Shown piece by piece: positions 7,362 to 19,771 of a stretch of 20,353 nt of DNA. The notes under the pieces were generated by a model. That model did no database searches, was not told where the DNA came from, and saw only the letters and a program-made list of their open reading frames with translations. The position numbers were made by a program, and so were the translations under genes. Source of the DNA: Erysipelotrichia bacterium (GTDB taxonomy: Bacteria > Bacillota_I > Bacilli_A > Erysipelotrichales > Erysipelotrichaceae). Location of the stretch: positions 1 through 20,353 of the forward strand of contig SAAR01000023.1 of assembly GCA_009916335.1 (NCBI GenBank), in the 5' to 3' direction. Numbering within the stretch: the first letter of the stretch is position 1; each line of letters opens with the position of its first letter.

Positions 7362-9020
7362 TTAAAAGTTCATTTCTAATATAACAGGTAAAACCATTGG
7401 ACGTTTCCCCGTTTCTTTACTTAAATAGCGATTAATTTTATCTCTCGCTTCCATTCTTACTTCAATATTTTCATAACGCTTTTCTGCGACTGCTTTTTCA
7501 ATTGTTTCCTCCATGATCTTCATCACTTCCTTCACAATATAATCAGCATCTTTCAAATAGATCAATCCTCTTGTTTGTACATCAATACCACTTACGATCT
7601 TCTTTGTTTTAAAATCTAAAGAAACACCGATAATCATTACACCATCTTTTGATAAAATTTCACGATCCTTTAAGACAACACCCGTTACATCCCAGTTTTC
7701 ATTACCATCAATCAATGTATCATCAAGTTCTAATTCTTGTGCCATGGAAATTAAAGAACGTTTCTTAAAAGTCGCTACCTGTCCATTATCACATAAGACA
7801 ATACGATCAGGAGTAAACCCCATCAAAGTAGCTAAATCAGCATTTTTAATTAAATGGCGATATTCTCCTTTAACTGGAAAATAATACTTTGGTTTAAACA
7901 AGTATAAGGCCATCTTTAAATCTTCTTTTGATGGATGCATTGACAATAAATCGCGTGAACGGAAGGAATAAATTGTCCCACCTTCTTTATATACTTCATT
8001 TTCCATATTCACAGCTTCTTTTTCTGTTCCATTTACCATATTAGAAGCCATAATAATCGTATCACTTTGTTTAAAATTCACAAGTGCATCTTCATGCGTT
8101 GCAATATTAGACATCTTCAAATATAATCGTTTTCCACTACCTGTAACCATAATTAAAACATCTTCCATATCGTTATTAAAATCTTTTTTCTCTACGATAT
8201 ATTCTTTAGGTAATTTGAAATAGCCAATATCATCTAACTGTTTAATCATTTTGCGTAAATTATCATCATGGAAGAAAATTTTCTTCTTATATTTTACTGC
8301 AATGTTTAATATTTCTTGTATTCTAAATAAACTTTGTTTATAACAAGCAACAATAAAACGCCCTTCATGCGATTCGAAAATCGGTTCAATCTTATCTGCA
8401 ATACGATGTCTTGGTGCAGTATGTCCATCAACTTCAATACCAATGGATTCACTTAACAAACATAAAACCCCTTTTTTACCAATTTCACTTAATTCATTTA
8501 AATCACAAATATATTCAGGTGTACGCACGTTATAATCAAATACATATTCCCCACTATATACAATATATCCTTGTGGTGATGCAATGGCAACACCAAAAGC
8601 ATCTGGGACTGCATGTGTCATTGCAAACGTTCTAACCTCTACCCCATCAATCGTTAAAATCGAAGTACGATCAATCACACGAATATTTGTATTGCGTACT
8701 TTCTCTTTACGCAGTGTTTCTTCAATTTGTAAAGCTGTAAACTTTCCTGTATAAACAGGAGCGTTAATCTGCTTTAACAAGTAAGGTAGTGCACGCATGA
8801 CATCATCATGTGCATGAGTGATAAAAATACCACCAATCCTTCTTTTGTTTTCAATTAAATAGGTAAAATCAGGAATGATAAATTCTACACCTAACAACGT
8901 TGTATCAGGAATCATAATCCCTGCTTCAATAATGAAGATGACATCATTAACCTCTACACAATACATATTTTTTCCATTTTCATCTAATCCGCCTAATGCG
9001 AATATTTTTACATTATCCAT
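7362..9020 (-). CDS. rnjB: Ribonuclease J family protein, RNase J2-like with degenerate active site
   Basis: 552 residues, full length for RNase J, with metallo-beta-lactamase, beta-CASP and C-terminal domains. It starts MDNVKIFALGGLDENGKNMY and ends GKRPMVLPVILEMNF, both typical of the family. The metal site is eroded: the HxHxDH motif reads HAHDDV (69-74), the aspartate of SGD is glutamate (SGEY, 156-159), HTSGH reads LLSMH (358-362), and the last histidine in P-I-H-GEYR is lysine (PVKGEYR, 382-388). H136 (THAVPD) is kept. Bacillus RNase J2 likewise has a weakened site and acts mainly as a partner of RNase J1 in mRNA 5'-end and rRNA processing. Its position directly before ftsK matches ymfA(rnjB)-spoIIIE, which supports the J2 call. 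A catalytically weak or structural role is inferred. Confidence 0.88.
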   Translation of the reverse strand: MDNVKIFALGGLDENGKNMYCVEVNDVIFIIEAGIMIPDTTLLGVEFIIPDFTYLIENKRRIGGIFITHAHDDVMRALPYLLKQINAPVYTGKFTALQIEETLRKEKVRNTNIRVIDRTSILTIDGVEVRTFAMTHAVPDAFGVAIASPQGYIVYSGEYVFDYNVRTPEYICDLNELSEIGKKGVLCLLSESIGIEVDGHTAPRHRIADKIEPIFESHEGRFIVACYKQSLFRIQEILNIAVKYKKKIFFHDDNLRKMIKQLDDIGYFKLPKEYIVEKKDFNNDMEDVLIMVTGSGKRLYLKMSNIATHEDALVNFKQSDTIIMASNMVNGTEKEAVNMENEVYKEGGTIYSFRSRDLLSMHPSKEDLKMALYLFKPKYYFPVKGEYRHLIKNADLATLMGFTPDRIVLCDNGQVATFKKRSLISMAQELELDDTLIDGNENWDVTGVVLKDREILSKDGVMIIGVSLDFKTKKIVSGIDVQTRGLIYLKDADYIVKEVMKIMEETIEKAVAEKRYENIEVRMEARDKINRYLSKETGKRPMVLPVILEMNF

Positions 9021-9563: not shown

Positions 9564-9582
9564 TTTGTTAGGAGGAATGGAA

Positions 9583-12528
9583 ATGACTTATAAACTTGGT
9601 TTAGATGTTGGCTCTACAACCATCAAAGCTGTTGTCTTAGATGAATCTGACAATGTAATTTACAAAAGTTATGAACGCCATAAATCATTAGTAAGAGAAA
9701 TGGCCTATGATAAAATTATACAATTAGAAAATATATTAAAAGATAAAGAAATTAAAGTAGCGATTACTGGCTCAGCAGGACATGGTATCGCCACTATTGC
9801 ACATATCGACTTAGTACAAGAAGTATTTGCGACAACAAAAGCAGTTAAACAGTATTTTCCACAAAGTGATGTGGTCATTGAATTAGGTGGTGAAGATGCA
9901 AAAATCATCTTTTTAAATGGTGCTTTAGAAGAACGTATGAATTCTACTTGTGCTGGTGGAACAGGAGCATTCATCGATCAAATGGCATCTTTACTAAATG
10001 TCGATTTAAAAACATTAGATGAACTTAGTTTAAAACATACAAAATTATACCCTATCGCTTCACGCTGTGGAGTGTTTGCGAAAAGCGATATTCAACCTTT
10101 AATCAATCAAGGTGCAGATAAAGCAAACATTGCGGCTAGCATTTTCCAAGCTGTCGTTGACCAAACAATCACTGGTTTAGCACAAGGAAGACGAATTGAT
10201 GGCAACATTCTTTTCTTAGGTGGACCTCTATCTTTTAATCGAGGACTACGTCAACGTTTTATTGAAACGTTAAAAATCAAAGAAGAAAATGCCTTTTTGC
10301 CTGAACTCGCTCCTTATTTTGTTGCTTTAGGTGCTGCTATTTTTGCGAAAAGCAACAAAAAAACATTTCATTATGAAAGTTTAAAAGACGCATTAGCAAA
10401 AAGTGCAAATGCAAAAGTAAAAACGGCTGGTCTACCTCCTTTATTTAAAAACGATCAGGAATACATAGAATTTAATGAAAGACATAATCAAGCAGATGTT
10501 GAAGTTGTTCCTTTACAAAGATATACAGGAAATGCTTATTTAGGAATTGATGCAGGAAGTACAACAACCAAAATAGTCTTATTAGACGAACAAAATCGCA
10601 TCTTATATTCTAATTATACCAGTAATCAAGGAAATCCTATTGATGTTGTAAAAGAACAGTTAACCTACATTTATGAACATAATACAAAGCTTACCATTAA
10701 AGCAAGTGCTGTTACAGGGTATGGTGAAGATTTAATCAAGCAAGCGTTTCATCTTGATAGTGGTGTAGTCGAAACCATTGCTCATTATACCGCCGCAAAA
10801 TACTTTCAACCAAATGTCGATTTTATTATTGATATTGGTGGACAAGATATGAAATGCTTTAAAATTAAAGATGGACGCATTGATGAAATCATATTAAATG
10901 AGGCTTGTTCGAGTGGTTGTGGTTCTTTTATTGAAACCTTCGCAAAATCACTAGGCTATGATATTAAAGCATTTGCACAAATGGGCTTATTAGGAAAACA
11001 ACCTGTCGATTTAGGAAGTCGCTGTACTGTTTTTATGAACTCTAGTGTTAAAGAAGCACAAAAAAACGGTGCCTCTGTTGAAGATATTTCTGCAGGACTT
11101 GCTTTATCCGTAGTAAAAAATGCATTATATAAAGTAATCCGCATTAAAAACGCTGAAGAATTAGGCGATCATATTGTTGTACAGGGAGGTACTTTTTTAA
11201 ACGATACCATTTTAAGAAGCTTTGAACTCGAACTGCACAAACAGGTAGTACGCCCTAAAATTGCTGGTTTAATGGGTGCTTATGGAGCCGCATTAATTGC
11301 TAAAAAAAGAACGATGAAACAAAGTAGTATTATTGATGCAAGTACCTTAAAGCATTTTTCCCATACATCGAAAGCCATTAATTGTCAATCCTGTACAAAT
11401 CATTGTAACTTAACGATCAATATCTTTGAAGATGGAAAGCGTTTAATTGCTGGTAATAAATGTGAACGTCCTATTAGTGGTAAAGAATTCAAAAATGATA
11501 TCTTTAATGTTTATCGCTATAAATTAGAACAGCTATACGCATATAATGAACGTAGCATAAAAGGAAAACGTGGTAAAATCGGCATTCCTATGGTTTTAAA
11601 TATGTATGAAAACTTACCTTTTTGGCATGCTTTCTTTACACAATTAGGGTATGAAGTTGTCATCAGTGATCAATCTAGCAAAGCCCTTTACAATAAAGGA
11701 CAACACACAATTCCTAGTGATACTGTTTGTTATCCTGCAAAACTTGTACATGGACACATCTATTCCCTATTAGAAAAAGAAGTCCCTACGATTTTTTATC
11801 CTGCACTTACTTATAATTTTGATGAAGGTATTTCAGATAATTGCTTTAATTGTCCAGTAGTTGCATACTACCCTGAAAATATTGCATCTAATATTGATAT
11901 GGAAAACACGACTTTCCTATTTCCTTTTATCAGTTTAAATGATCGTAAAAATTTCATTCTTAAAATGTATCAATACTTCAAACAAAATAATATTAAAATT
12001 TCACGCAAAGAAATCAAAATAGCAAGTGCTTGTGCGTATCAAGAATACGAACAATTTAAACAACGTGTTCGTCAATATGCCAAAGCAGCAATTCAATATG
12101 CACAAGATAACGATAAGTACATTATCTGTTTAGCTGGGCGTCCTTACCATATCGATCCAGAAATCAATCATGGATTAGCAAATGTCATCAGCAATTTAGA
12201 TTGTGTTGTCATTAGTGAAGACGCTATTGCAGAGGAAGTTTCTTTTGAAGCTAGAAACGTATTAAATCAATGGACCTATCATGCACGTTTATACCAAGCA
12301 GCAAAATTTGTTTCACAATTAGATCGTTGTGAACTTATTCAACTTGTTTCTTTTGGTTGTGGATTAGATTCCATCACTAGTGATGAAATTCGTGAAATAT
12401 TAAGAGAAAACAACAAATTGTATACGCAGATTAAAATTGATGAAATAGATAATTTAGGAGCTGCTAAAATTCGTATTCGCTCCTTACTAGCTGCCATGAA
12501 AAACAGAGGTGATAAACATGCAAACTAA
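9583..12528 (+). CDS. Acyl-CoA dehydratase activase with two HgdC-type domains and DUF2229 region
   Basis: 981 residues. ATG at 9583 is chosen because GGAGG (9571-9575) lies seven bases upstream; a TTG further up precedes the ribosome site. Domain 1 (about 1-265) and domain 2 (about 318-575) are BadF/BadG/BcrA/HgdC-type ATPases, each opening with a phosphate-binding loop (LGLDVGSTTIK; LGIDAGSTTTK) and each carrying the cluster cysteines (C123 in NSTCAGGTG and C162 in SRCGVF; C442/C446 in ACSSGCGSF and C481 in SRCTVF). A third region (about 595-975) fits DUF2229, with CxxCxxxC at 601-608 and C627 plus later conserved cysteines. HgdC-type activases use ATP to drive a low-potential electron into a 2-hydroxyacyl-CoA dehydratase. 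The next gene overlaps by 11 bases and encodes such a partner. The substrate cannot be told from sequence. Confidence 0.9.
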   Translation: MTYKLGLDVGSTTIKAVVLDESDNVIYKSYERHKSLVREMAYDKIIQLENILKDKEIKVAITGSAGHGIATIAHIDLVQEVFATTKAVKQYFPQSDVVIELGGEDAKIIFLNGALEERMNSTCAGGTGAFIDQMASLLNVDLKTLDELSLKHTKLYPIASRCGVFAKSDIQPLINQGADKANIAASIFQAVVDQTITGLAQGRRIDGNILFLGGPLSFNRGLRQRFIETLKIKEENAFLPELAPYFVALGAAIFAKSNKKTFHYESLKDALAKSANAKVKTAGLPPLFKNDQEYIEFNERHNQADVEVVPLQRYTGNAYLGIDAGSTTTKIVLLDEQNRILYSNYTSNQGNPIDVVKEQLTYIYEHNTKLTIKASAVTGYGEDLIKQAFHLDSGVVETIAHYTAAKYFQPNVDFIIDIGGQDMKCFKIKDGRIDEIILNEACSSGCGSFIETFAKSLGYDIKAFAQMGLLGKQPVDLGSRCTVFMNSSVKEAQKNGASVEDISAGLALSVVKNALYKVIRIKNAEELGDHIVVQGGTFLNDTILRSFELELHKQVVRPKIAGLMGAYGAALIAKKRTMKQSSIIDASTLKHFSHTSKAINCQSCTNHCNLTINIFEDGKRLIAGNKCERPISGKEFKNDIFNVYRYKLEQLYAYNERSIKGKRGKIGIPMVLNMYENLPFWHAFFTQLGYEVVISDQSSKALYNKGQHTIPSDTVCYPAKLVHGHIYSLLEKEVPTIFYPALTYNFDEGISDNCFNCPVVAYYPENIASNIDMENTTFLFPFISLNDRKNFILKMYQYFKQNNIKISRKEIKIASACAYQEYEQFKQRVRQYAKAAIQYAQDNDKYIICLAGRPYHIDPEINHGLANVISNLDCVVISEDAIAEEVSFEARNVLNQWTYHARLYQAAKFVSQLDRCELIQLVSFGCGLDSITSDEIREILRENNKLYTQIKIDEIDNLGAAKIRIRSLLAAMKNRGDKHAN

Positions 12529-13756
12529 TCGTGTGGAATTCACAAAAGAAATGAAAAAAACACATAAAATATTAATTCCTAATATGTTGCCAATTCACTT
12601 TAAGATGTATGAGGACATTTTGCAAAGTGAGGGATATGATGTTGAATTATTAACAAGTACGCATCATCAAATTATTGATGAAGGGGTTAGAAATGTCCAC
12701 AATGACACATGCTATCCTGCTTTATTAGTTATCGGTCAAATGATTGACGCTTTAAAAAGTGGCCGTTATGATTTAGATCATGTCGCTTTAATTATCACAC
12801 AAACAGGTGGAGGTTGCCGTGCTAGTAATTATATCAACCTATTGCGTAAAGCACTCGCCAGCAATAACATGGCACAAATTCCTGTCATTTCTTTAAACTT
12901 CGCAGGTTTGGAATCTAATAGTGGTTTTAAATTAAACGCTAGATTAGGGGTTAAATTAATTTATGCGACCATCTACGCTGATATGATTATGTGGATTTCC
13001 AATCAATGCCTTCCTTATGAAAAAAAAGAAGGAACAACGAAAGCAATGATTCGCAAATGGCAAAACGAAATTTGTAAACAACTGCATTCCCCTGCCTTTT
13101 TACTTGTATCTCATAACTATCGAAACATCTTACATGACTTTGCCACTATTGAAAAGTTAGACATTAAAAAGCCAAAAGTAGGAATTGTTGGGGAAATATA
13201 CATGAAATATGCACCTTTAGGTAATAATAATCTGGAAGCCTTTTTAATTAAAGAAGGAGCAGAACCTATTTTATCTGGATTACTTGATTTCATTTTGTAC
13301 TGTTTAGAAAATATCATTATGGATTATCAGCTATACCATTTGAATAAAAATGCAAAAGTTCTAGCAAAATTAGGAAAAGCATATATTATAAGAAATCAAA
13401 AACGTATGATTAAAGCAATTCAAAAACATTCTCCTTTCATCGCCATGGAAAATTTTGATGTTGTTAAAGAAATGGCTAATGATTATATCTCAAAAGGAGT
13501 TAAAATGGGAGAAGGTTGGCTATTAACAAGTGAAATGTTAGATTTAATTCATAGTGGTGTCAACAACATTATCTGTACGCAACCATTTGGTTGTTTACCA
13601 AATCATATTGTCGCAAAAGGAATGTTAAGAAAGATTAAAGATCATTATCCAATGTCAAACATCGTTGCGATTGATTATGATCCAGGAGCAAGTGCAATCA
13701 ATCAAGAAAATCGTATTAAATTGATGTTGTCAAACGCAAAAAGCAATGAGAACTAG
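12518..13756 (+). CDS. 2-hydroxyacyl-CoA dehydratase-like protein (HgdB-type, CoA activase-associated)
   Basis: 412 residues, starting at ATG 12518 with AGAGGTG six bases upstream; a GTG in frame nine bases earlier lies within the ribosome site. Its beginning overlaps the activase gene end by 11 bases. Cysteines in family-type contexts (HNDTCYPALLVIGQM, TGGGCRASNYI, NNIICTQPFGCLPNHIVAKG) are candidate Fe-S ligands, and the C-terminal YDPGASAINQENRIKLML is a conserved feature of this class. In many Clostridia the same parts form one chain of about 1,400 residues (two activase domains, DUF2229, dehydratase-like domain); here that chain is cleanly divided, with a ribosome site for the second half, so it reads as natural fission rather than a frameshift. 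No separate HgdA/HgdB pair or CoA-transferase is nearby, so amino acid fermentation is possible but unproven. Confidence 0.85.
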   Translation: MQTNRVEFTKEMKKTHKILIPNMLPIHFKMYEDILQSEGYDVELLTSTHHQIIDEGVRNVHNDTCYPALLVIGQMIDALKSGRYDLDHVALIITQTGGGCRASNYINLLRKALASNNMAQIPVISLNFAGLESNSGFKLNARLGVKLIYATIYADMIMWISNQCLPYEKKEGTTKAMIRKWQNEICKQLHSPAFLLVSHNYRNILHDFATIEKLDIKKPKVGIVGEIYMKYAPLGNNNLEAFLIKEGAEPILSGLLDFILYCLENIIMDYQLYHLNKNAKVLAKLGKAYIIRNQKRMIKAIQKHSPFIAMENFDVVKEMANDYISKGVKMGEGWLLTSEMLDLIHSGVNNIICTQPFGCLPNHIVAKGMLRKIKDHYPMSNIVAIDYDPGASAINQENRIKLMLSNAKSNEN

Positions 13757-13764
13757 GAGGTATC

Positions 13765-14496
13765 ATGCAAACAATTACTATCTTTCTATATTTTATAATC
13801 TACGCTTTCTTAGGTTGGATATGTGAATCTGTATACAAAAGTGTTTTTCGTAAAAAAATGATTAACAGTGGTTTTTTAAATGGACCAATATGTCCTATCT
13901 ATGGTTTTGGTGCATTGTTGATCATCTATTTATTAACACCTTTTCAAAATAACCCCTTTTTCGTATTTATTTTTGGTGTTTTGACAACTTCCCTTTTGGA
14001 ATATTTCACCAGCTGGCTATTAGAAAGTTTATTCCATATGAGCTGGTGGGATTACTCTAAACACAAGTTCAACATTCATGGACGTGTATGTTTATTAAAT
14101 GCCACAATGTTTGGACTCATGAGTTTATTTGTAATGTATATTGCTCACCCAATAACCACCCATCTATTCAAAAAAATAGATGTAAATACACAATTACTAT
14201 TAGCAGGAGTAATCTTCACTTTACTGCTTATTGATACGATTGTATCCATTATTTCTGTCTTGAATATGAATAAATCTTTAGTTAAAATACATGATTATCT
14301 ACATTCTATCTTTGCCAATATGGATGGTTTAACAAGTAAAATCAGTAAGGAAAACGAATTGATTATTCAACGTTTAATTAAAAAACGTGCTCATTTAAAA
14401 CGTGCTTTCCCTAATTTAGAACACAAACGTTTTGATATTCGTGTAAAAAACTTAAACGAAATAATTATTAAAACAAAGAACAACCTGAAAAAATAG
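13765..14496 (+). CDS. Putative ABC-transporter type IV membrane protein (CmpB family)
   Basis: 243 residues. The hallmark N-terminal pattern is FLYFIIYAFLGWICESVYKS followed by GFLNGPICPIYGFGALL, and then a TSLLEYFTSWLLESLFHMSWWDYS stretch and NIHGRVCLLNA. This is the PF06541 family (named putative ABC-transporter type IV, CmpB). At least five hydrophobic segments lie in the first 165 residues, followed by a basic, helical cytoplasmic tail of about 70 residues. TAGGAGG sits just upstream, and only eight bases separate it from the previous gene, so it is in the same operon. Despite the name no ATPase partner is adjacent and the transported substrate, if any, is unknown. Its gene ends inside the large terminator. 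Confidence 0.85.
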   Translation: MQTITIFLYFIIYAFLGWICESVYKSVFRKKMINSGFLNGPICPIYGFGALLIIYLLTPFQNNPFFVFIFGVLTTSLLEYFTSWLLESLFHMSWWDYSKHKFNIHGRVCLLNATMFGLMSLFVMYIAHPITTHLFKKIDVNTQLLLAGVIFTLLLIDTIVSIISVLNMNKSLVKIHDYLHSIFANMDGLTSKISKENELIIQRLIKKRAHLKRAFPNLEHKRFDIRVKNLNEIIIKTKNNLKK

Positions 14497-14514
14497 GTTG
14501 TTCTTTGTTTTAAT
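14467..14514. terminator. Bidirectional terminator, 20-bp perfect stem spanning both stop codons
   Basis: Arms 14467-14486 and 14495-14514 are perfectly complementary over 20 bases around an 8-base A-rich loop (14487-14494). The arm ends carry TTTGTTTT on either strand, giving a U-rich 3' tail in both directions. The stop codon of the CmpB-family gene (14494-14496) and of the converging lipoprotein gene (14512-14510) both lie in the structure. Confidence 0.88.
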
Positions 14515-16246
14515 GAAAGGGTTGTTTAGTGTTTGGCATACCACCACTCATACCAATATTTCCATAGGTTGTTAAATTACTACTTAATACAATATCTGCT
14601 AATGCACTACCTCCATTTGCTTGATATGCATATTGATTTGTGCTATTCACTAAATTTCCACCTAAATAAATTGTATATGTGTCATTCAATGTTAATGTAT
14701 CAGTTGAAATAACAACATTATTAAATGCTTTAATCGCCGTTACACCAACTACTACATTGCCTTTTTGATCACTAAGATAAAGTGTTGTATTGGTGTTTTG
14801 CATGGTATCAAGTGCAATCATTAAACTATTTTGAGTTGATGATGCAGAAGGCATCATTGCCATACCAGATGTACCAACAGCAATTAGTGTTCCTTTATTC
14901 ATCACACAATCATTCTCATAATCTAAAGCACCATTCCCTTCATTATCTGAACCCATAACAATCAAAACACCATCGTTCATAGTAATACTTCCATTACTAT
15001 CTACCCCATCACCATAAGCATCAATATAAATCGTTCCTCCATTAATATTGATTTGATATTCACTAGTACGATCACTCGTAGCATTCATACCATCATCACT
15101 AGCACATAACGAAATAGCTCCACTATCAATAGTAATCGTCGCCCCTTCTAATCCTTCATAGCTTTGCGTAACATTAATGTTGGCATCACTAGCAAACAAA
15201 TCAAGAGCCGCATGTATCCCATCATCATCACTAGCTATCGTATAAGTACCTCCTTTAATATGAATACTAGCATCACTATGAATCGCATCATCTACACAAG
15301 ATAATGTATAAGTTCCACCTTCTATGATTATTTCTTGCTTAGCTTTAATTCCTTTCATACTAATCTTATCTGTTTCATCATAATCGCTAAAATCATTAAA
15401 ATAAACATTTGTGCCACTTACACTATTCACACTACCTCCACCACAAGTGATCGAAAAGGTTCCCGCATAGATAGTAAGGTAACTTGCTGATTGAATTCCA
15501 TCTTGTGCAGCATTTAATACAAAAGTTCCCTTTTCAATTATTAATTCACCATTTTCAGTTTCGGCAGTTGTTACTATAGCATCACCACTTGCATTGATAT
15601 GATAACTACCTTTACGAACCATTAAACAATCTTTGCTTTTAATACCATCGTTTTGAGCAATAATTTTATAATTTCCTTCCATCATTTTCAAAGTATCTTT
15701 ACACTGAATTCCATTCTTATAATTCGCATGAAGCACTAACTTACCTGTTCCATTAAAGGTTAAATCATCTTTACTAAAGATAGCTGCACTAGTTTCATTA
15801 CTATCTTGTTGATAAACATTACCATCACTGATTATATTTTTACTACCTTTAGGTAAGGAAATAATCGTCTTTTTCGCATTTTTCACATAAATAGGTGAAT
15901 AATCTTCACAGTGAATCGTAGCGTTCAATAAGATGATGCGTACTACCTCTTCACTACTCACCTCAACAATCACACTCCCATTAGTCAATATTCCACTTAA
16001 TACATAAGTCCCACCTTCTTTAATATACACATTCTCATCTACTTTATTTAGATTGATTTTTGTATATGTTTCATTCTCATAATCAAGATAATAATCATCT
16101 TCATCATAGATTGATAAATCGCTATTCTCACTTGTCATTGTTGCTTTTGTTTCCCCTTTATTTCCTTCATTACTACAGCCTGTTAAAAATGCAAGCAATA
16201 ACATCAAACTTGTACAAAGTGTCCACACTCTTTTTTTATAAACCAT
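14510..16246 (-). CDS. Cthe_2159-type carbohydrate-binding beta-helix lipoprotein
   Basis: 578 residues from ATG at 16246 (a GTG one codon earlier is the alternative). A lipoprotein signal is evident: basic KKRVW, a hydrophobic core, lipobox LTGC with the lipidated Cys at about residue 24, then a charged spacer rich in D/E/S/T. The body is a long run of short beta-type repeats with recurring acidic turns: DGI near 200, DAI 222, DGI 249, DDAI 319, DDDGI 340, EGL 364, DDGM 384, GDGVD 412, each followed by a hydrophobic strand and often GGT. This is the PF14262 (Cthe_2159) pattern, a right-handed beta helix shown in Clostridium thermocellum to bind cellulose and pectin-like polymers, with calcium sites at acidic turns. 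It is third in an operon with VTC-type and DUF4956 genes and starts inside the DUF4956 gene end. It is predicted to be anchored outside the cell. Confidence 0.87.
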   Translation of the reverse strand: MVYKKRVWTLCTSLMLLLAFLTGCSNEGNKGETKATMTSENSDLSIYDEDDYYLDYENETYTKINLNKVDENVYIKEGGTYVLSGILTNGSVIVEVSSEEVVRIILLNATIHCEDYSPIYVKNAKKTIISLPKGSKNIISDGNVYQQDSNETSAAIFSKDDLTFNGTGKLVLHANYKNGIQCKDTLKMMEGNYKIIAQNDGIKSKDCLMVRKGSYHINASGDAIVTTAETENGELIIEKGTFVLNAAQDGIQSASYLTIYAGTFSITCGGGSVNSVSGTNVYFNDFSDYDETDKISMKGIKAKQEIIIEGGTYTLSCVDDAIHSDASIHIKGGTYTIASDDDGIHAALDLFASDANINVTQSYEGLEGATITIDSGAISLCASDDGMNATSDRTSEYQININGGTIYIDAYGDGVDSNGSITMNDGVLIVMGSDNEGNGALDYENDCVMNKGTLIAVGTSGMAMMPSASSTQNSLMIALDTMQNTNTTLYLSDQKGNVVVGVTAIKAFNNVVISTDTLTLNDTYTIYLGGNLVNSTNQYAYQANGGSALADIVLSSNLTTYGNIGMSGGMPNTKQPFH

Positions 16247-16910
16247 CACTTATCGCCTGCCTTTTTGCACATACAATCATTAAATTCCCATTTCGACAAC
16301 GTAATTCATCAATCATCTGCTTTTCTAACTTTAAATTTCTTAACTGAATATGATAAATGACTTCAATCATACTTCCCATCTGTATCGTTTTTACACGAAT
16401 TAATTCCGCTTTAATCGTATATGTTAAAAATATATCATCAAAAATTTGTGTATAATCTAAATTTTCTGGAATAATAATTTTTAGTTCTTTGTCATGTTGA
16501 TTCTCGTCAGCGAATTTACTTCTAAACAATAGTAAAGAAACAAAAGATACAATAATACCAATAAAGATAGCAAATGTCAAAAAGCCCATTCCCACTGCTA
16601 GTCCAATTGCCATCGAAAAAAAGATAGCTACAATCTCACGACTACTTCCTGGTACAGAACGAAAGCGAACAAGGGAAAAAGCCCCCACCACTGCTACTCC
16701 TGTACCTAAATTACCATTAACCATCATAATAACAAACGATACTAACATTGGTAAAATAGCAAGTGTAACCGTAAAGTTTTTAGAATAATTCCCTTGTTTT
16801 TGATAAACGTAGGCAATGATAATTCCCAGCATTAATGATGTTAGTGTACACCATAAACCACTCATAACATTCAAGCCATTACTAACATCACCTATTACAC
16901 TTGTAAACAT
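16236..16910 (-). CDS. DUF4956 membrane protein
   Basis: 224 residues with AAGGAGG nine bases before ATG. Hydrophobic segments at about 13-36, 46-64, 70-80, 92-108 and 110-129 make a four- to five-pass membrane domain. The loop GAFSLVRFRSVPGSSREIVA (about 77-96) and the following SMAIGLAVGMGFL are the conserved signature of DUF4956. The C-terminal 95 residues are soluble (KIIIPENLDYTQIFDDIFLT and onward) and should face the cytoplasm. The gene overlaps the upstream VTC-type gene by 16 bases and the lipoprotein gene by 11, so the three are almost certainly translated together. The function is not established; the constant partnership with VTC-type proteins suggests a membrane channel or anchor for a polymer-making enzyme (inference). 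Confidence 0.88.
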   Translation of the reverse strand: MFTSVIGDVSNGLNVMSGLWCTLTSLMLGIIIAYVYQKQGNYSKNFTVTLAILPMLVSFVIMMVNGNLGTGVAVVGAFSLVRFRSVPGSSREIVAIFFSMAIGLAVGMGFLTFAIFIGIIVSFVSLLLFRSKFADENQHDKELKIIIPENLDYTQIFDDIFLTYTIKAELIRVKTIQMGSMIEVIYHIQLRNLKLEKQMIDELRCRNGNLMIVCAKRQAISDGL

Positions 16911-17605
16911 GATTTGTTTCCTCCTTCATTTAACATCATATTTTCATAAATTCTTCCATATTTCGAAAAAGAAACAGGATATATTTTTAAATCAGATAAA
17001 AGTGTACTTAGCCATAAAGGATATGCTTGTTTGACTTTGATTTCCATTAAACATTCTCCATCTTTCAATAACAATTCTCCTTCATCTCCATACCTTAAAT
17101 CAAGATGATCAAAGCGACTGCGAATATTAAAATCAAAGGTAATACGCAAACGATGATCCTCTTTTCCTTTATAGGCAAAACGATCATACGCAATAAACAC
17201 CTTTGGTTCAGGTTTATAAAAATTAAGCATATAATTAATTTCTTTGCTTATTTGCGTATCCATCATTAATAAGCAATGATCATTCACTTCCTTATATGAC
17301 ATCTTAACTCTACGCTTATTTACAACCCCTTTACATTTCTTTTTGATTTCTAAAAAAACAGAATCATTTTCTTGAATTACCCCATAACTTCTTAATCTTA
17401 ATTTTTCTTTATACAGAGGTTTCTGCAATGAAGTATTAATTAAATCATAATGATTTGTATCATAATAAATATTACAAATTGTACTTTTATAATATTCATC
17501 TTCAATCATATACATTTGCAATCGTTTCATCAATTCTACATATTTTTCCTTACTTATTAAATATTTCTTTTCCTTTCTTTGCATACACATAATAGTCGGT
17601 TTCAT
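16895..17605 (-). CDS. VTC-domain polyphosphate polymerase-like protein
   Basis: 236 residues forming one triphosphate-tunnel (CYTH/VTC) domain, PF09359. Charged pairs alternate through the chain as in VTC4: RKEKKY (10-15), KEKLRLRSY (66-74), FLEIKKK (84-90), YDRFAY (140-145), RLRITFD (152-158), LMEIKV (186-191) and FSKYGR (213-218). These supply the basic residues lining the tunnel and the metal-binding glutamates, so the fold looks catalytically intact. In yeast, VTC4 builds inorganic polyphosphate from ATP and feeds it through a membrane channel; bacterial VTC-type proteins lack the SPX domain and their product is less certain. GAGGTG lies nine bases ahead of ATG at 17605. It heads an overlapping operon with DUF4956 and the beta-helix lipoprotein. 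Confidence 0.87.
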   Translation of the reverse strand: MKPTIMCMQRKEKKYLISKEKYVELMKRLQMYMIEDEYYKSTICNIYYDTNHYDLINTSLQKPLYKEKLRLRSYGVIQENDSVFLEIKKKCKGVVNKRRVKMSYKEVNDHCLLMMDTQISKEINYMLNFYKPEPKVFIAYDRFAYKGKEDHRLRITFDFNIRSRFDHLDLRYGDEGELLLKDGECLMEIKVKQAYPLWLSTLLSDLKIYPVSFSKYGRIYENMMLNEGGNKSCLQV

Positions 17606-17646
17606 CTTTTTTCACCTCACTGATAGTATAGAGAAAAGAAAAGAAC

Positions 17647-17768
17647 ATTCTATGTTATCAAAGTGAAAATATGATGAATATTATGTTAAAAAAGTGTTAG
17701 AATAACATTTTTGATAAACACCACAAGAAAAAGATGGATCATTCAATATCCATCTAAATATTATGTTA
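17647..17768. repeat. Repeated AATATTATGTTA motif and palindrome upstream of the VTC operon
   Basis: AATATTATGTTA occurs exactly at 17677-17688 and 17757-17768, with the related TATGTTA at 17651-17657. Between them TGTTAGAATAACA (around 17695-17707) is a perfect 5-3-5 palindrome with the same TGTTA/TAACA half-sites. The cluster lies 45-165 bases upstream of the VTC-type gene and could bind a regulator. No confident promoter could be placed here. Confidence 0.45.
17728..17755 (-). terminator. Terminator between the CpXC gene and the VTC operon
   Basis: On the minus strand AGATGGAT, eight-base loop, ATCCATCT, then TTTTCTT. It lies about 130 bases after the CpXC gene and about 120 before the VTC gene; it most likely ends the CpXC transcript. 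Confidence 0.72.
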
Positions 17769-17883
17769 TTTTTTTATATCATGTTTGCATACTTTTTATA
17801 TAATAAGCTTCCCTATATCACTTTTTTTATCTATGCATTATTCTTTTTTATCTTCCCATGCTATTTATTGAGTACAATAAACC

Positions 17884-18408
17884 TTAAATATGGATAAAAC
17901 GTTCTGCCCCTGAATCAATCATCTGATAAAATCTACGTTCTACACCGATTGGTCCTTTTTCACTCTCAAACCAAAGCAAATCATCATCTGCACTTTCAAA
18001 ATAGACTTGTTCGTACTTATTTTTCAAACGTTCCTTAATTTGTTCGATCCCTTCATCTAGTAAACCAAACTCATAAATTAATATCTTTTCTTTTAACTGT
18101 TTTTCATTATATACAATCCGTTTATGAAAATGATGATAGATTTCTAATTCATCTAACTCCTTAATCCAACTTGTTTCCTCATCGACAATCAATGCAATTA
18201 AAAATTTCCGTTTTAGATCACAATACAAAAAAGGATAATAAAAAGTCGTTAATTCCCCACATTTACTACATTTCCTAGTAAAGAAAGCTTCCTCTAAAAT
18301 TAATTTTTTTAATGATTTTTCATTTTCCGCATGGACAACACTTTCGCATTTAATCGCCCATATACTTTCACATTTTGAACATTGAATCTCATACATTTTA
18401 CTTTTCAT
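17884..18408 (-). CDS. CpXC-motif (zinc-ribbon) protein
   Basis: 174 residues. The N-terminal 65 residues hold CSKC (10-13), C21, CSKC (47-50) with CGEL, and C63, the arrangement of the CpXC family (PF14353), a presumed metal-binding module with a helix between two C-x-x-C knuckles. The rest is soluble, rich in Glu/Lys, and not recognised beyond the family. No Shine-Dalgarno sequence precedes the ATG; instead a strong extended -10 promoter is positioned so that transcription should begin at or next to the A of the start codon, which fits a leaderless message. The second ATG at codon 5 also lacks a ribosome site. It is monocistronic, with a terminator about 130 bases downstream. Its function is unknown. 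Confidence 0.78.
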   Translation of the reverse strand: MKSKMYEIQCSKCESIWAIKCESVVHAENEKSLKKLILEEAFFTRKCSKCGELTTFYYPFLYCDLKRKFLIALIVDEETSWIKELDELEIYHHFHKRIVYNEKQLKEKILIYEFGLLDEGIEQIKERLKNKYEQVYFESADDDLLWFESEKGPIGVERRFYQMIDSGAERFIHI

Positions 18409-18414
18409 ACTAAC

Positions 18415-18442
18415 ATGATAGCATATTCACTTTGATTATCAA
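18415..18442 (-). promoter_or_regulatory. Promoter placed directly at the CpXC start codon
   Basis: On the minus strand TTGATA (18442-18437), 16-base spacer ending TGC, TATCAT (18420-18415): an extended -10 promoter. Six bases separate the -10 box from the A of ATG at 18408, so the predicted start site coincides with the first codon. Confidence 0.68.
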
Positions 18443-18465
18443 CTTTTATACTCAAAAATTTCACT

Positions 18466-18488
18466 AAAAAAGAGGTGCATACACCTCT
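18466..18488 (-). terminator. Terminator after pgi
   Basis: On the minus strand AGAGGTG, TATG loop, CACCTCT, followed by TTTTT. It lies eight bases after the pgi stop codon. Confidence 0.88.
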
Positions 18489-18496
18489 CAATCGCT

Positions 18497-19771
18497 TTAG
18501 TTTTTACCTAATCGTTTAAACATGTTTTTCTTGTATACTTCTACTCCTGGTTGATTGAATGGGTTAATATCAATCATGTAACAAGACATTGCACAAGCTC
18601 TAAAGAAGAAGTAGCATAAGTAACCAAATGTTTTAGCACTCATATCAGGAGCGATAATCATTAAGTTAGGAACATTTCCTGTTATTTCATGTGCTTCTAA
18701 TGTTCCTTGCATTGCCATCTTATTTACCCAATCAACACTTTTACCAGCTAAATAATTCATACCGTCTGCATTTTCTTCATCATTTGGAAAAACAAGATCT
18801 TCGATTGGTTTTTCAAACAACACTAATGTTTCATATAACATTTTCTTCCCATCTTGCACAAACTGTCCCAATGAATGTAAATCTGTTGAGAATGTTGCAC
18901 TACAAGGTAAGATTCCTTTTCCATCTTTTCCTTCTGATTCACCAAACAACTGTTTCCACCATTCTGCCAACATTGTCGTATTTAAATCATAGCTAACAAA
19001 CATTTCAGCATCTTTTCCCTGTTTTTCAAGGATTCTTCTAGCAACTCCATAAGCATATGCACTATTTTTTGTTAAATCTGGTGTCGCAAAATCATTGTAT
19101 GCTTCTTTTACCCCACTCATTAGTTCATCAATACTAATACCAGCAACCGCAATTGGAAATAATCCTACTGCAGTAATCACAGAGAAACGTCCTCCAATAT
19201 CATCAGGAATTGCAAACGTTGTATACCCTTCCTTACCTGCAATATCATGTAATGTACCTTTTACTTTATCCGTTGTCGCAAAAATACGTTTTTTTGCTTC
19301 TTCTTTACCATACTCGTTTTCCATAAACCGTTTCAACAAACGGAAAGCCAACGCTGTTTCTGTTGTTGTTCCTGATTTAGAAATCACATTCACACAAACT
19401 TCTTTTCCTTCTAAATACTTTAACACCTGTGCAATATATGTAGAAGAAAATGTATTTCCCACAAATAAAATTTCTGGTTTTTTATCTGCATATAAACCAT
19501 TAATCATTTCAATGGCTGCACGAGCCCCTAAATAAGAACCCCCAATTCCACAAACAACAAACACATCACAGTTTTCTCTAACATAGGCAGCACTTGTTTT
19601 CATTAGTGCAAATTCTTCTTGATCATAAGTATTACACCAATCTACCCAACCTAAGAAGTCATTCCCCTTACCAGTTTTATTCATGATTGCTTCATGTAAT
19701 TCATTTACTTTGTCCTGATAAGATAAAATATCTTCTTGTAAAAATGCATGTGAACTATCAAATTTAATCAT
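18497..19771 (-). CDS. pgi: Glucose-6-phosphate isomerase
   Basis: 424 residues, the compact bacterial form (Bacillus Pgi is about 450). Phosphosugar-binding SIS folds are seen at VCGIGGSYLGARAAIE (73-88) and NVISKSGTTTETALAF (128-143). The PGI signatures DIGGRFSVITAVGLFP (191-206) and NQPGVEVYKKNMF (406-418) are complete; candidate catalytic residues are the glutamates of GESEG (277-281), H299 in TDLHSLGQ and K414. The enzyme interconverts glucose-6-phosphate and fructose-6-phosphate in glycolysis. GGAGGAG lies eight bases before ATG. It is the second gene of a transcript led by the S1-domain gene 33 bases upstream, and has its own terminator. Pgi and the S1 protein YugI are also near neighbours in Bacillus. 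Confidence 0.97.
   Translation of the reverse strand: MIKFDSSHAFLQEDILSYQDKVNELHEAIMNKTGKGNDFLGWVDWCNTYDQEEFALMKTSAAYVRENCDVFVVCGIGGSYLGARAAIEMINGLYADKKPEILFVGNTFSSTYIAQVLKYLEGKEVCVNVISKSGTTTETALAFRLLKRFMENEYGKEEAKKRIFATTDKVKGTLHDIAGKEGYTTFAIPDDIGGRFSVITAVGLFPIAVAGISIDELMSGVKEAYNDFATPDLTKNSAYAYGVARRILEKQGKDAEMFVSYDLNTTMLAEWWKQLFGESEGKDGKGILPCSATFSTDLHSLGQFVQDGKKMLYETLVLFEKPIEDLVFPNDEENADGMNYLAGKSVDWVNKMAMQGTLEAHEITGNVPNLMIIAPDMSAKTFGYLCYFFFRACAMSCYMIDINPFNQPGVEVYKKNMFKRLGKN

Follow-up and report, generated by a model that had tools for sequence, protein, structure and literature searches.

Several described systems resemble a three-gene operon that we analyzed in a 20,353-nucleotide (nt) stretch of DNA from an Erysipelotrichia bacterium (contig SAAR01000023.1; the whole stretch is hereafter called the window). 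The operon encodes a VTC-type triphosphate-tunnel protein, a DUF4956 membrane protein, and a Cthe_2159-type beta-helix lipoprotein. One counterpart is the eukaryotic VTC complex, in which the tunnel polymerase Vtc4 is joined by Vtc1, Vtc2, and Vtc3. The two have in common the tunnel-domain fold, aligned catalytic residues, and conserved basic residues in the membrane partner. However, Pfam models detect neither an SPX nor a Vtc1-type domain in the window's VTC-type and DUF4956 chains, and its membrane partner is instead MgtC/SapB-like.

Bacterial relatives of the core have also been reported (for all papers cited here, our statements refer to the available portions of their text). The accessory genes of Gram-positive pel loci include those for CotH, a 'poly-phosphate polymerase', DUF4956, and DUF4832 (PMC7112168), and in Streptococcus intermedius they are SIR_1594 to SIR_1591 (PMC12345266). 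These loci share the VTC-DUF4956 pair with the window, which differs in having the Cthe_2159-type lipoprotein and in that its VTC and DUF4956 proteins fall in the opposite branch of both protein trees described below. Among eight window proteins scanned with Pfam (positions 9565 to 19771), none carries a CotH or pel domain. Clostridium perfringens NELoc-2, with its VTC, 'tubulin', and CotH genes (PMC2879425), likewise has VTC genes adjoining genes for membrane proteins of 222 to 226 amino acids, which are probably DUF4956 proteins, along with CotH. It differs in being of the CotH type with a putative glycosyltransferase close by, and the available portion of that paper does not mention the lipoprotein variant. 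Our own search, which did not extend to subscription papers or preprints, found no literature joining DUF4956 or the VTC domain with Cthe_2159. The core of the module is already known, and we found no published description of its lipoprotein variant. An initial annotation of the window, made from its letters alone, had called the function of the module not established. For function this agrees with the literature searched, but the VTC-DUF4956-CotH trio is in print as a set of Pel-locus accessory genes (PMC7112168, PMC12345266).

Our comparisons support the VTC-DUF4956 pair as a near-obligate unit, with the lipoprotein as one of its two alternative partners. In the window, the VTC-type gene (236 codons; positions 16895 to 17605), the DUF4956 gene (224 codons; 16236 to 16910), and the lipoprotein gene (579 codons; 14510 to 16249) all lie on the reverse strand. 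The three families named in the initial annotation all score above their Pfam gathering cut-offs: PF09359 with an E value of 6e-42 (144.2 bits versus 23), PF16316 with 5e-15 (56.1 versus 30.6), and PF14262 with 4e-89 (298.9 versus 25.8). The first two genes overlap by 16 nt. The second and third overlap by 14 nt if translation begins at the GTG at 16249, or by 11 nt if it begins instead at the ATG at 16246, which makes the earlier figure of about 11 a fair one. This arrangement supports a single operon.

Among the 80 VTC loci that best match the window, DUF4956 adjoins VTC in 75. Seventy of these were found through open reading frames (ORFs). The ORF filter had removed DUF4956 genes overlapping VTC by more than 100 nt, and a recheck restored 5 of 10 apparent absences. 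A lipoprotein relative lies near VTC in 53 of the 80. Because these loci were chosen by similarity to the window, we also used two evenly drawn samples totaling 267 genomes. One holds 149 genomes from the class of G002, a genome with an Erysipelotrichaceae locus (class inferred to be Bacilli), and the other holds 118 from the class of G010, a Candidatus Galacturonibacter (class inferred to be Clostridia). The samples yielded 54 and 81 VTC matches, of which 52 (within 1.5 kb) and 71 (within 2.5 kb) have DUF4956 nearby, or 123 of 135. Eight of the 12 exceptions are partial matches (G078, G254, G264, G246, G243, G010, G171, and G174), three begin less than 200 nt from a contig end (G099, G233, and G194), and only G205 is neither. 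Conserved linkage had been named beforehand as one of the points on which the idea of a joint module could fail, and it is what these counts display.

At the level of whole genomes, 104 of the 267 carry both families, 5 carry only VTC, 2 only DUF4956 (below cut-off), and 156 neither, with Fisher values of 8e-33 and 2e-30 for the two samples when kinship is ignored. The same 3 of 14 control genomes match both families, and these are the bacteria Bacteroides ihuae and Corynebacterium glutamicum and the archaeon Methanosarcina acetivorans. The module is real and conserved, and we found no function assigned to it. We also considered VTC-DUF4956 fusion proteins, which a joined query listed (P0241 to P0248, P0250, and others), and used none as evidence. 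In the 14 sequences examined, P0244 and P0248 have frame-shifted VTC tails and P0264 a frame-shifted DUF4956 part, all of which look like artefacts. P0241 to P0243 apparently switch frame right at the gene overlap, and P0245, P0247, and P0250 cannot be judged from the protein sequence alone. Among 131 loci whose DNA contains a VTC ORF (one locus counted twice), no single ORF matches both families.

The third gene is more variable. Of the 123 paired loci, 37 (16 and 21 in the two samples) have PF14262 no more than 4 kb away, 59 (25 and 34) have a CotH protein (PF08757) within that distance, and the two never occur together. Accordingly, the claim that all three genes form one linked unit stands for VTC and DUF4956, but the lipoprotein is not an obligate member. 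Control genomes follow the same pattern, as PF14262 without CotH is found in B. ihuae, and CotH without PF14262 in both C. glutamicum and M. acetivorans. Some genomes (e.g., G025 and G061) contain one locus of each type. In the 149-genome sample, 13 of 16 lipoprotein genes lie downstream on the same strand, 1 lies upstream, and 2 are convergent.

Where a usual partner is present, it almost always begins with a membrane or signal stretch. This is true of 25 of 26 CotH ORFs in the 149-genome sample, with the exceptional one (L111, 374 amino acids) preceded by an overlapping ORF with lamin-tail domains. It is also true of 16 of 16 lipoprotein-family ORFs, 12 of which have a standard lipobox by pattern. 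Judging from these N termini, both partner proteins probably reside outside the cell. The window's lipoprotein has a signal peptide and an LTGC lipobox at residues 22 to 25 (Cys25; positions 16175 to 16249, read from the sequence), in keeping with the anchored surface lipoprotein of a binding family that was originally proposed. Among the 26 CotH proteins, numbered as in L108, N277 and D279 are each kept in 25 and D304 in all 26. According to a review, CotH retains counterparts of PKA D166, N171, and D184 (PMC12189002).

Trees built by a quick method included 53 VTC and 51 DUF4956 proteins, namely those of the window plus 52 and 50, respectively, from the 54 loci in the 149-genome sample, after missing or short ORFs were excluded. 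In both, the window, all 16 lipoprotein rows, and 8 partnerless rows are separated from the CotH rows (support 99 and 100), such that the partner state requires one change per tree. The DUF4956 row of L116 is a long branch and is possibly misplaced. Because the two trees share the same split, the pair diverged together. By the same token, partner exclusivity in this sample reflects one old split rather than many independent events, and its pooled Fisher value of 2e-14, which ignores kinship, overstates the case. The split can also be seen in individual VTC residues, as K66, R99, R164, and F213 are present in 14 of 16 lipoprotein rows and in none of 25 CotH rows.

These data bear on whether the lipoprotein is a mere passenger, that is, a polysaccharide-binding surface protein that came to lie in the operon by chance. 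PF14262 does occur without VTC in 12 of the 267 genomes (7 and 5), and in several VTC genomes it lies away from the VTC locus (e.g., G037) or on other contigs (G095, G075, and G138). Moreover, 8 of the 25 rows that make up the lipoprotein branch have no lipoprotein gene nearby. However, chance placement is hard to reconcile with its complete avoidance of CotH at the paired loci, with its confinement to one branch of both trees, and with the tight spacing of its gene, which follows DUF4956 at a junction of 30 nt or less in 44 of 46 same-strand cases counted. We therefore consider the passenger explanation unlikely.

The VTC-type chain has PF09359 as its sole Pfam domain at an E value of 0.001, and no SPX domain was detected at that threshold. 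Its AlphaFold model has a mean predicted local distance difference test (pLDDT) score of 90.9 and is predicted to adopt a triphosphate-tunnel fold. The top PDB matches are Vtc4, Vtc3, and Vtc2 chains, and nine VTC entries rank above the remaining tunnel enzymes among the structure matches listed. Among bacterial relatives, a VTC protein of Eubacterium limosum (P0077) shows 55% identity. Likewise, 9 of 10 PDB sequences matched by its profile are VTC subunits, with the tenth at an E value of 0.0076. The tunnel domains of Vtc2 and Vtc3 are inactive, and so structural rank alone is no proof of activity.

Alignments indicate that the protein retains equivalents of Vtc4 K200, R264, R266, K281, R361, S457, and K458. 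R70 and R72, which align with R264 and R266 (codons for R70-L71-R72 at 17390 to 17398), are conserved in 53 of 53 VTC-type proteins and belong to a tunnel in which fifteen positions are invariant in all 53. The Vtc4 R264A/R266A/E426N mutant was used for the cryo-EM structure of the yeast complex (PMC9911596), and we assume that E188 is the equivalent of E426. The basic residues of the tunnel had been described as intact. This is correct for the tunnel core, but S59 and S212 occupy the positions of Vtc4 R253 and K455 (by alignment, with numbering by chain offset), which we take to be among the tunnel's basic residues. Overall, the comparisons support a VTC-clade tunnel protein with conserved catalytic positions. 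One might still propose a tunnel enzyme that does not polymerize, such as a tripolyphosphatase, an NTPase, or a cyclase-like enzyme, for which DUF4956 serves merely as an anchor. The preference for VTC subunits in both the structure and the profile matches argues against this proposal, which we regard as quite improbable.

The DUF4956 protein matches only PF16316 among Pfam models at an E value of 0.001, with neither a Vtc1-type domain nor PF02308 found. Its model, built from 40 sequences (pLDDT 75.9), predicts four or five membrane-type helices followed by an ACT/ferredoxin-like C-terminal domain. More precisely, there are five long helices, one of just 12 residues, and a beta-alpha-beta-beta-alpha-beta domain. 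Structure comparison matched only this C-terminal domain, whose fold is widespread among proteins. Profile-profile alignment against 20 MgtC proteins with hhalign gave 98.2% over 215 columns (93.2% for the transmembrane part and 55.6% for the C-terminal part), versus 0.5 to 1.0% for four reversed profiles and 0.1 to 0.2% for one unrelated membrane family. Judged by these profiles, DUF4956 is a remote MgtC/SapB-type membrane protein with an ACT-like domain. It is collinear in architecture with MgtC/SapB (PF02308), but the MgtC Pfam model misses the window protein, which has an RFR motif of its own. No paper making this connection under the DUF4956 name was found in a search that excluded subscription papers and preprints, and SIR_1592 of S. 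intermedius is described as an MgtC transmembrane domain plus an ACT domain (PMC12345266).

A conserved loop had been noted in this protein, at GAFSLVRFRSVPG (residues 76 to 88; positions 16647 to 16685). What is conserved there is R82 and F83 (each in 50 of 51 aligned proteins, window included) and R84 (51 of 51). With G76 and G103 included, these residues are kept in 49 to 51 of 51. The remaining positions of the motif vary. Residues 80 to 87 have pLDDT values below 50 in the model. Yeast VTC has a channel lined with basic residues, alteration of which abolishes the polyphosphate store (PMC9911596). A parallel with the two near-invariant arginines of DUF4956 is suggestive only. P0132, from an Erysipelotrichia bacterium, is 95% identical to the window's DUF4956 protein over 69% of the query, and a plasmid search for DUF4956 returned seven records, all below 60% identity and all predicted to be non-mobilizable.

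The lipoprotein has a homologue of solved structure in Cthe_2159 from Clostridium thermocellum (4peu; E value 1.6e-27), from which it differs in its greater length (579 amino acids) and its location in a VTC-DUF4956 operon. Members of this family bind cellulose or acid sugars, including polygalacturonic acid (PMC6712302). The window protein is itself acidic, with 70 aspartate and glutamate residues versus 35 lysine and arginine residues.

Taken together, these features are consistent with a membrane-coupled phosphate-polymer module, to which we assign a probability of roughly 45%. In such a module, the VTC enzyme and its MgtC-like partner would make or handle a phosphate polymer that serves an outer protein. 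In the cytoplasm, the VTC-type protein might use a nucleoside triphosphate to assemble a polyphosphate-type chain. DUF4956 might hold this enzyme at the membrane, use its own ACT-like domain to sense the enzyme's state, and either move the chain outward or gate the enzyme. Outside, the acidic beta-helix lipoprotein could retain an acidic product or a surface glycan, perhaps via divalent cations, with the CotH kinase-like protein substituting for it in the sister variant. We infer the use of a nucleoside triphosphate, the identity of the polymer, the direction of transport, and the ligand of the lipoprotein. If the VTC-type protein does polymerize phosphate, then many bacteria would have a second polyphosphate route beside PPK1, one with links to both the membrane and surface proteins. 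The either/or partners offer a clean experimental handle, as two branches share a core and differ in their outer protein.

It is tempting to go further and speculate that prokaryotes widely use VTC-DUF4956 as a machine for making polyphosphate inside the cell and delivering it to the outside, where ATP is scarce or absent. In the CotH branch, the kinase-like protein would modify surface proteins or glycans with phosphoryl groups drawn from the polymer. In the window's branch, the lipoprotein, which probably binds cations, would hold at the surface the polymer or a glycan bridged to it. We think this extended version rather improbable.

Several observations weigh against the phosphate-polymer proposal. 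The positions of Vtc4 R253 and K455 are unconserved across the aligned VTC-type proteins, and the literature covered gave no bacterial VTC-type protein with tested polymerase activity. We know of no MgtC relative that is a demonstrated channel. Neither partner lies within 4 kb of 27 of the 123 paired loci (11 and 16), and in two of the 80 best-matching loci (L020 and L038) the lipoprotein gene comes after VTC and tblastn gives no DUF4956 match. No PPK1 match exists in 32 of 46 VTC genomes. We rejected the notion that VTC substitutes for PPK1 because the two co-occur above expectation (PPK1 in 14 of 46 VTC genomes versus 7 of 103 others), and even this association may merely track genome size. 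Finally, single deletions of the four accessory genes in S. intermedius left aggregation in place in all cases. Loss of SIR_1592 (DUF4956) lowered aggregation and raised Pel, loss of SIR_1594 (CotH) lowered both, and for SIR_1593 (VTC) the available text reports no change (PMC12345266). With phenotypes reported for DUF4956 and CotH and none for VTC, DUF4956 in that species does more than provide the VTC enzyme with an exit. The initial idea of DUF4956 as the channel is weakened by this difference and by its remote MgtC/SapB rather than Vtc1 type, and the original interpretation as a whole is partly supported.

The same mutants lend weight to a different account, in which the MgtC-ACT protein and the VTC tunnel act as sensors of phosphate, ATP, or polyphosphate level and tune the synthesis of a surface polymer, neither polymerizing nor exporting anything themselves. 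The MgtC-like nature of DUF4956 and its ACT-like domain fit this account, as do the action of MgtC on ATP synthase and PhoR (cited in PMC12345266), the opposite changes in Pel after DUF4956 and CotH deletion, and the unspecific binding of several anions by VTC tunnel domains (PMC9911596). Mainly because of the S. intermedius data, it performs nearly as well as the best reading. However, fifteen invariant tunnel positions exceed what mere binding would lead one to expect. Furthermore, because PelG matches only one of the 149 genomes (G141), Pel is not a general target. On balance we consider a purely regulatory role possible but doubtful.

The scarcity of PelG also affects a published statement. 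According to the available text of PMC12345266, the CotH-VTC-DUF4956 arrangement was not found outside the Pel locus. In the 149-genome sample, 23 of the 25 VTC-DUF4956 loci with CotH come from genomes that lack a PelG match, and the S. intermedius gene order (CotH, VTC, DUF4956) is found in 8 of the 25, 6 of them in such genomes, which contradicts that statement. The sole pelG-linked locus of the 149 genomes (L110; 2838 to 4226 and 7344 to 8723, forward strand) has CotH-VTC-DUF4956 between a preceding PelG and a following DUF4874/DUF4832 protein.

Further features of the window's operon, all on the reverse strand, include a GGAGG Shine-Dalgarno-like sequence for DUF4956 at 16920 to 16924, which is within the end of the VTC coding region and 9 nt ahead of the DUF4956 ATG. 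Terminator-like hairpins were found by pattern match at 17732 to 17755, between the operon and an upstream CpXC-domain gene (17884 to 18408, reverse strand), and at 14467 to 14514, where a hairpin of 20 pairs at the operon end extends into the end of a convergent gene. The pattern search gave 5 such sites in 8.4 kb versus 2.7 in shuffled sequence. A simple consensus scan listed no promoter-like site in the stretch from the upstream hairpin to the start of VTC (matches did not exceed those in shuffles). No Rfam match at gathering score was obtained in the window, and no NCBIfam model matched its proteins at an E value of 0.001. The convergent gene (13765 to 14496, forward strand) encodes a PF06541 'putative ABC-transporter type IV' protein. 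Ahead of it is an overlapping pair of acyl-CoA dehydratase activase-type genes (9565 to 13756, forward strand), the first encoding BcrAD_BadFG and DUF2229 domains and the second a DUF2229 protein.

Neighbors beyond the three families were annotated for 30 chosen proteins only. Upstream of the CotH-branch VTC gene of L108 are genes for a sigma-70 region 2 protein and an RsgI-like anti-sigma factor (7509 to 9010, reverse strand), and gene pairs of similar size (judged by size only) precede VTC in L102, L109, and L126. In all four of these loci, approximately 700 to 1090 nt directly upstream of VTC are free of retained ORFs, and these regions are possibly long leaders.

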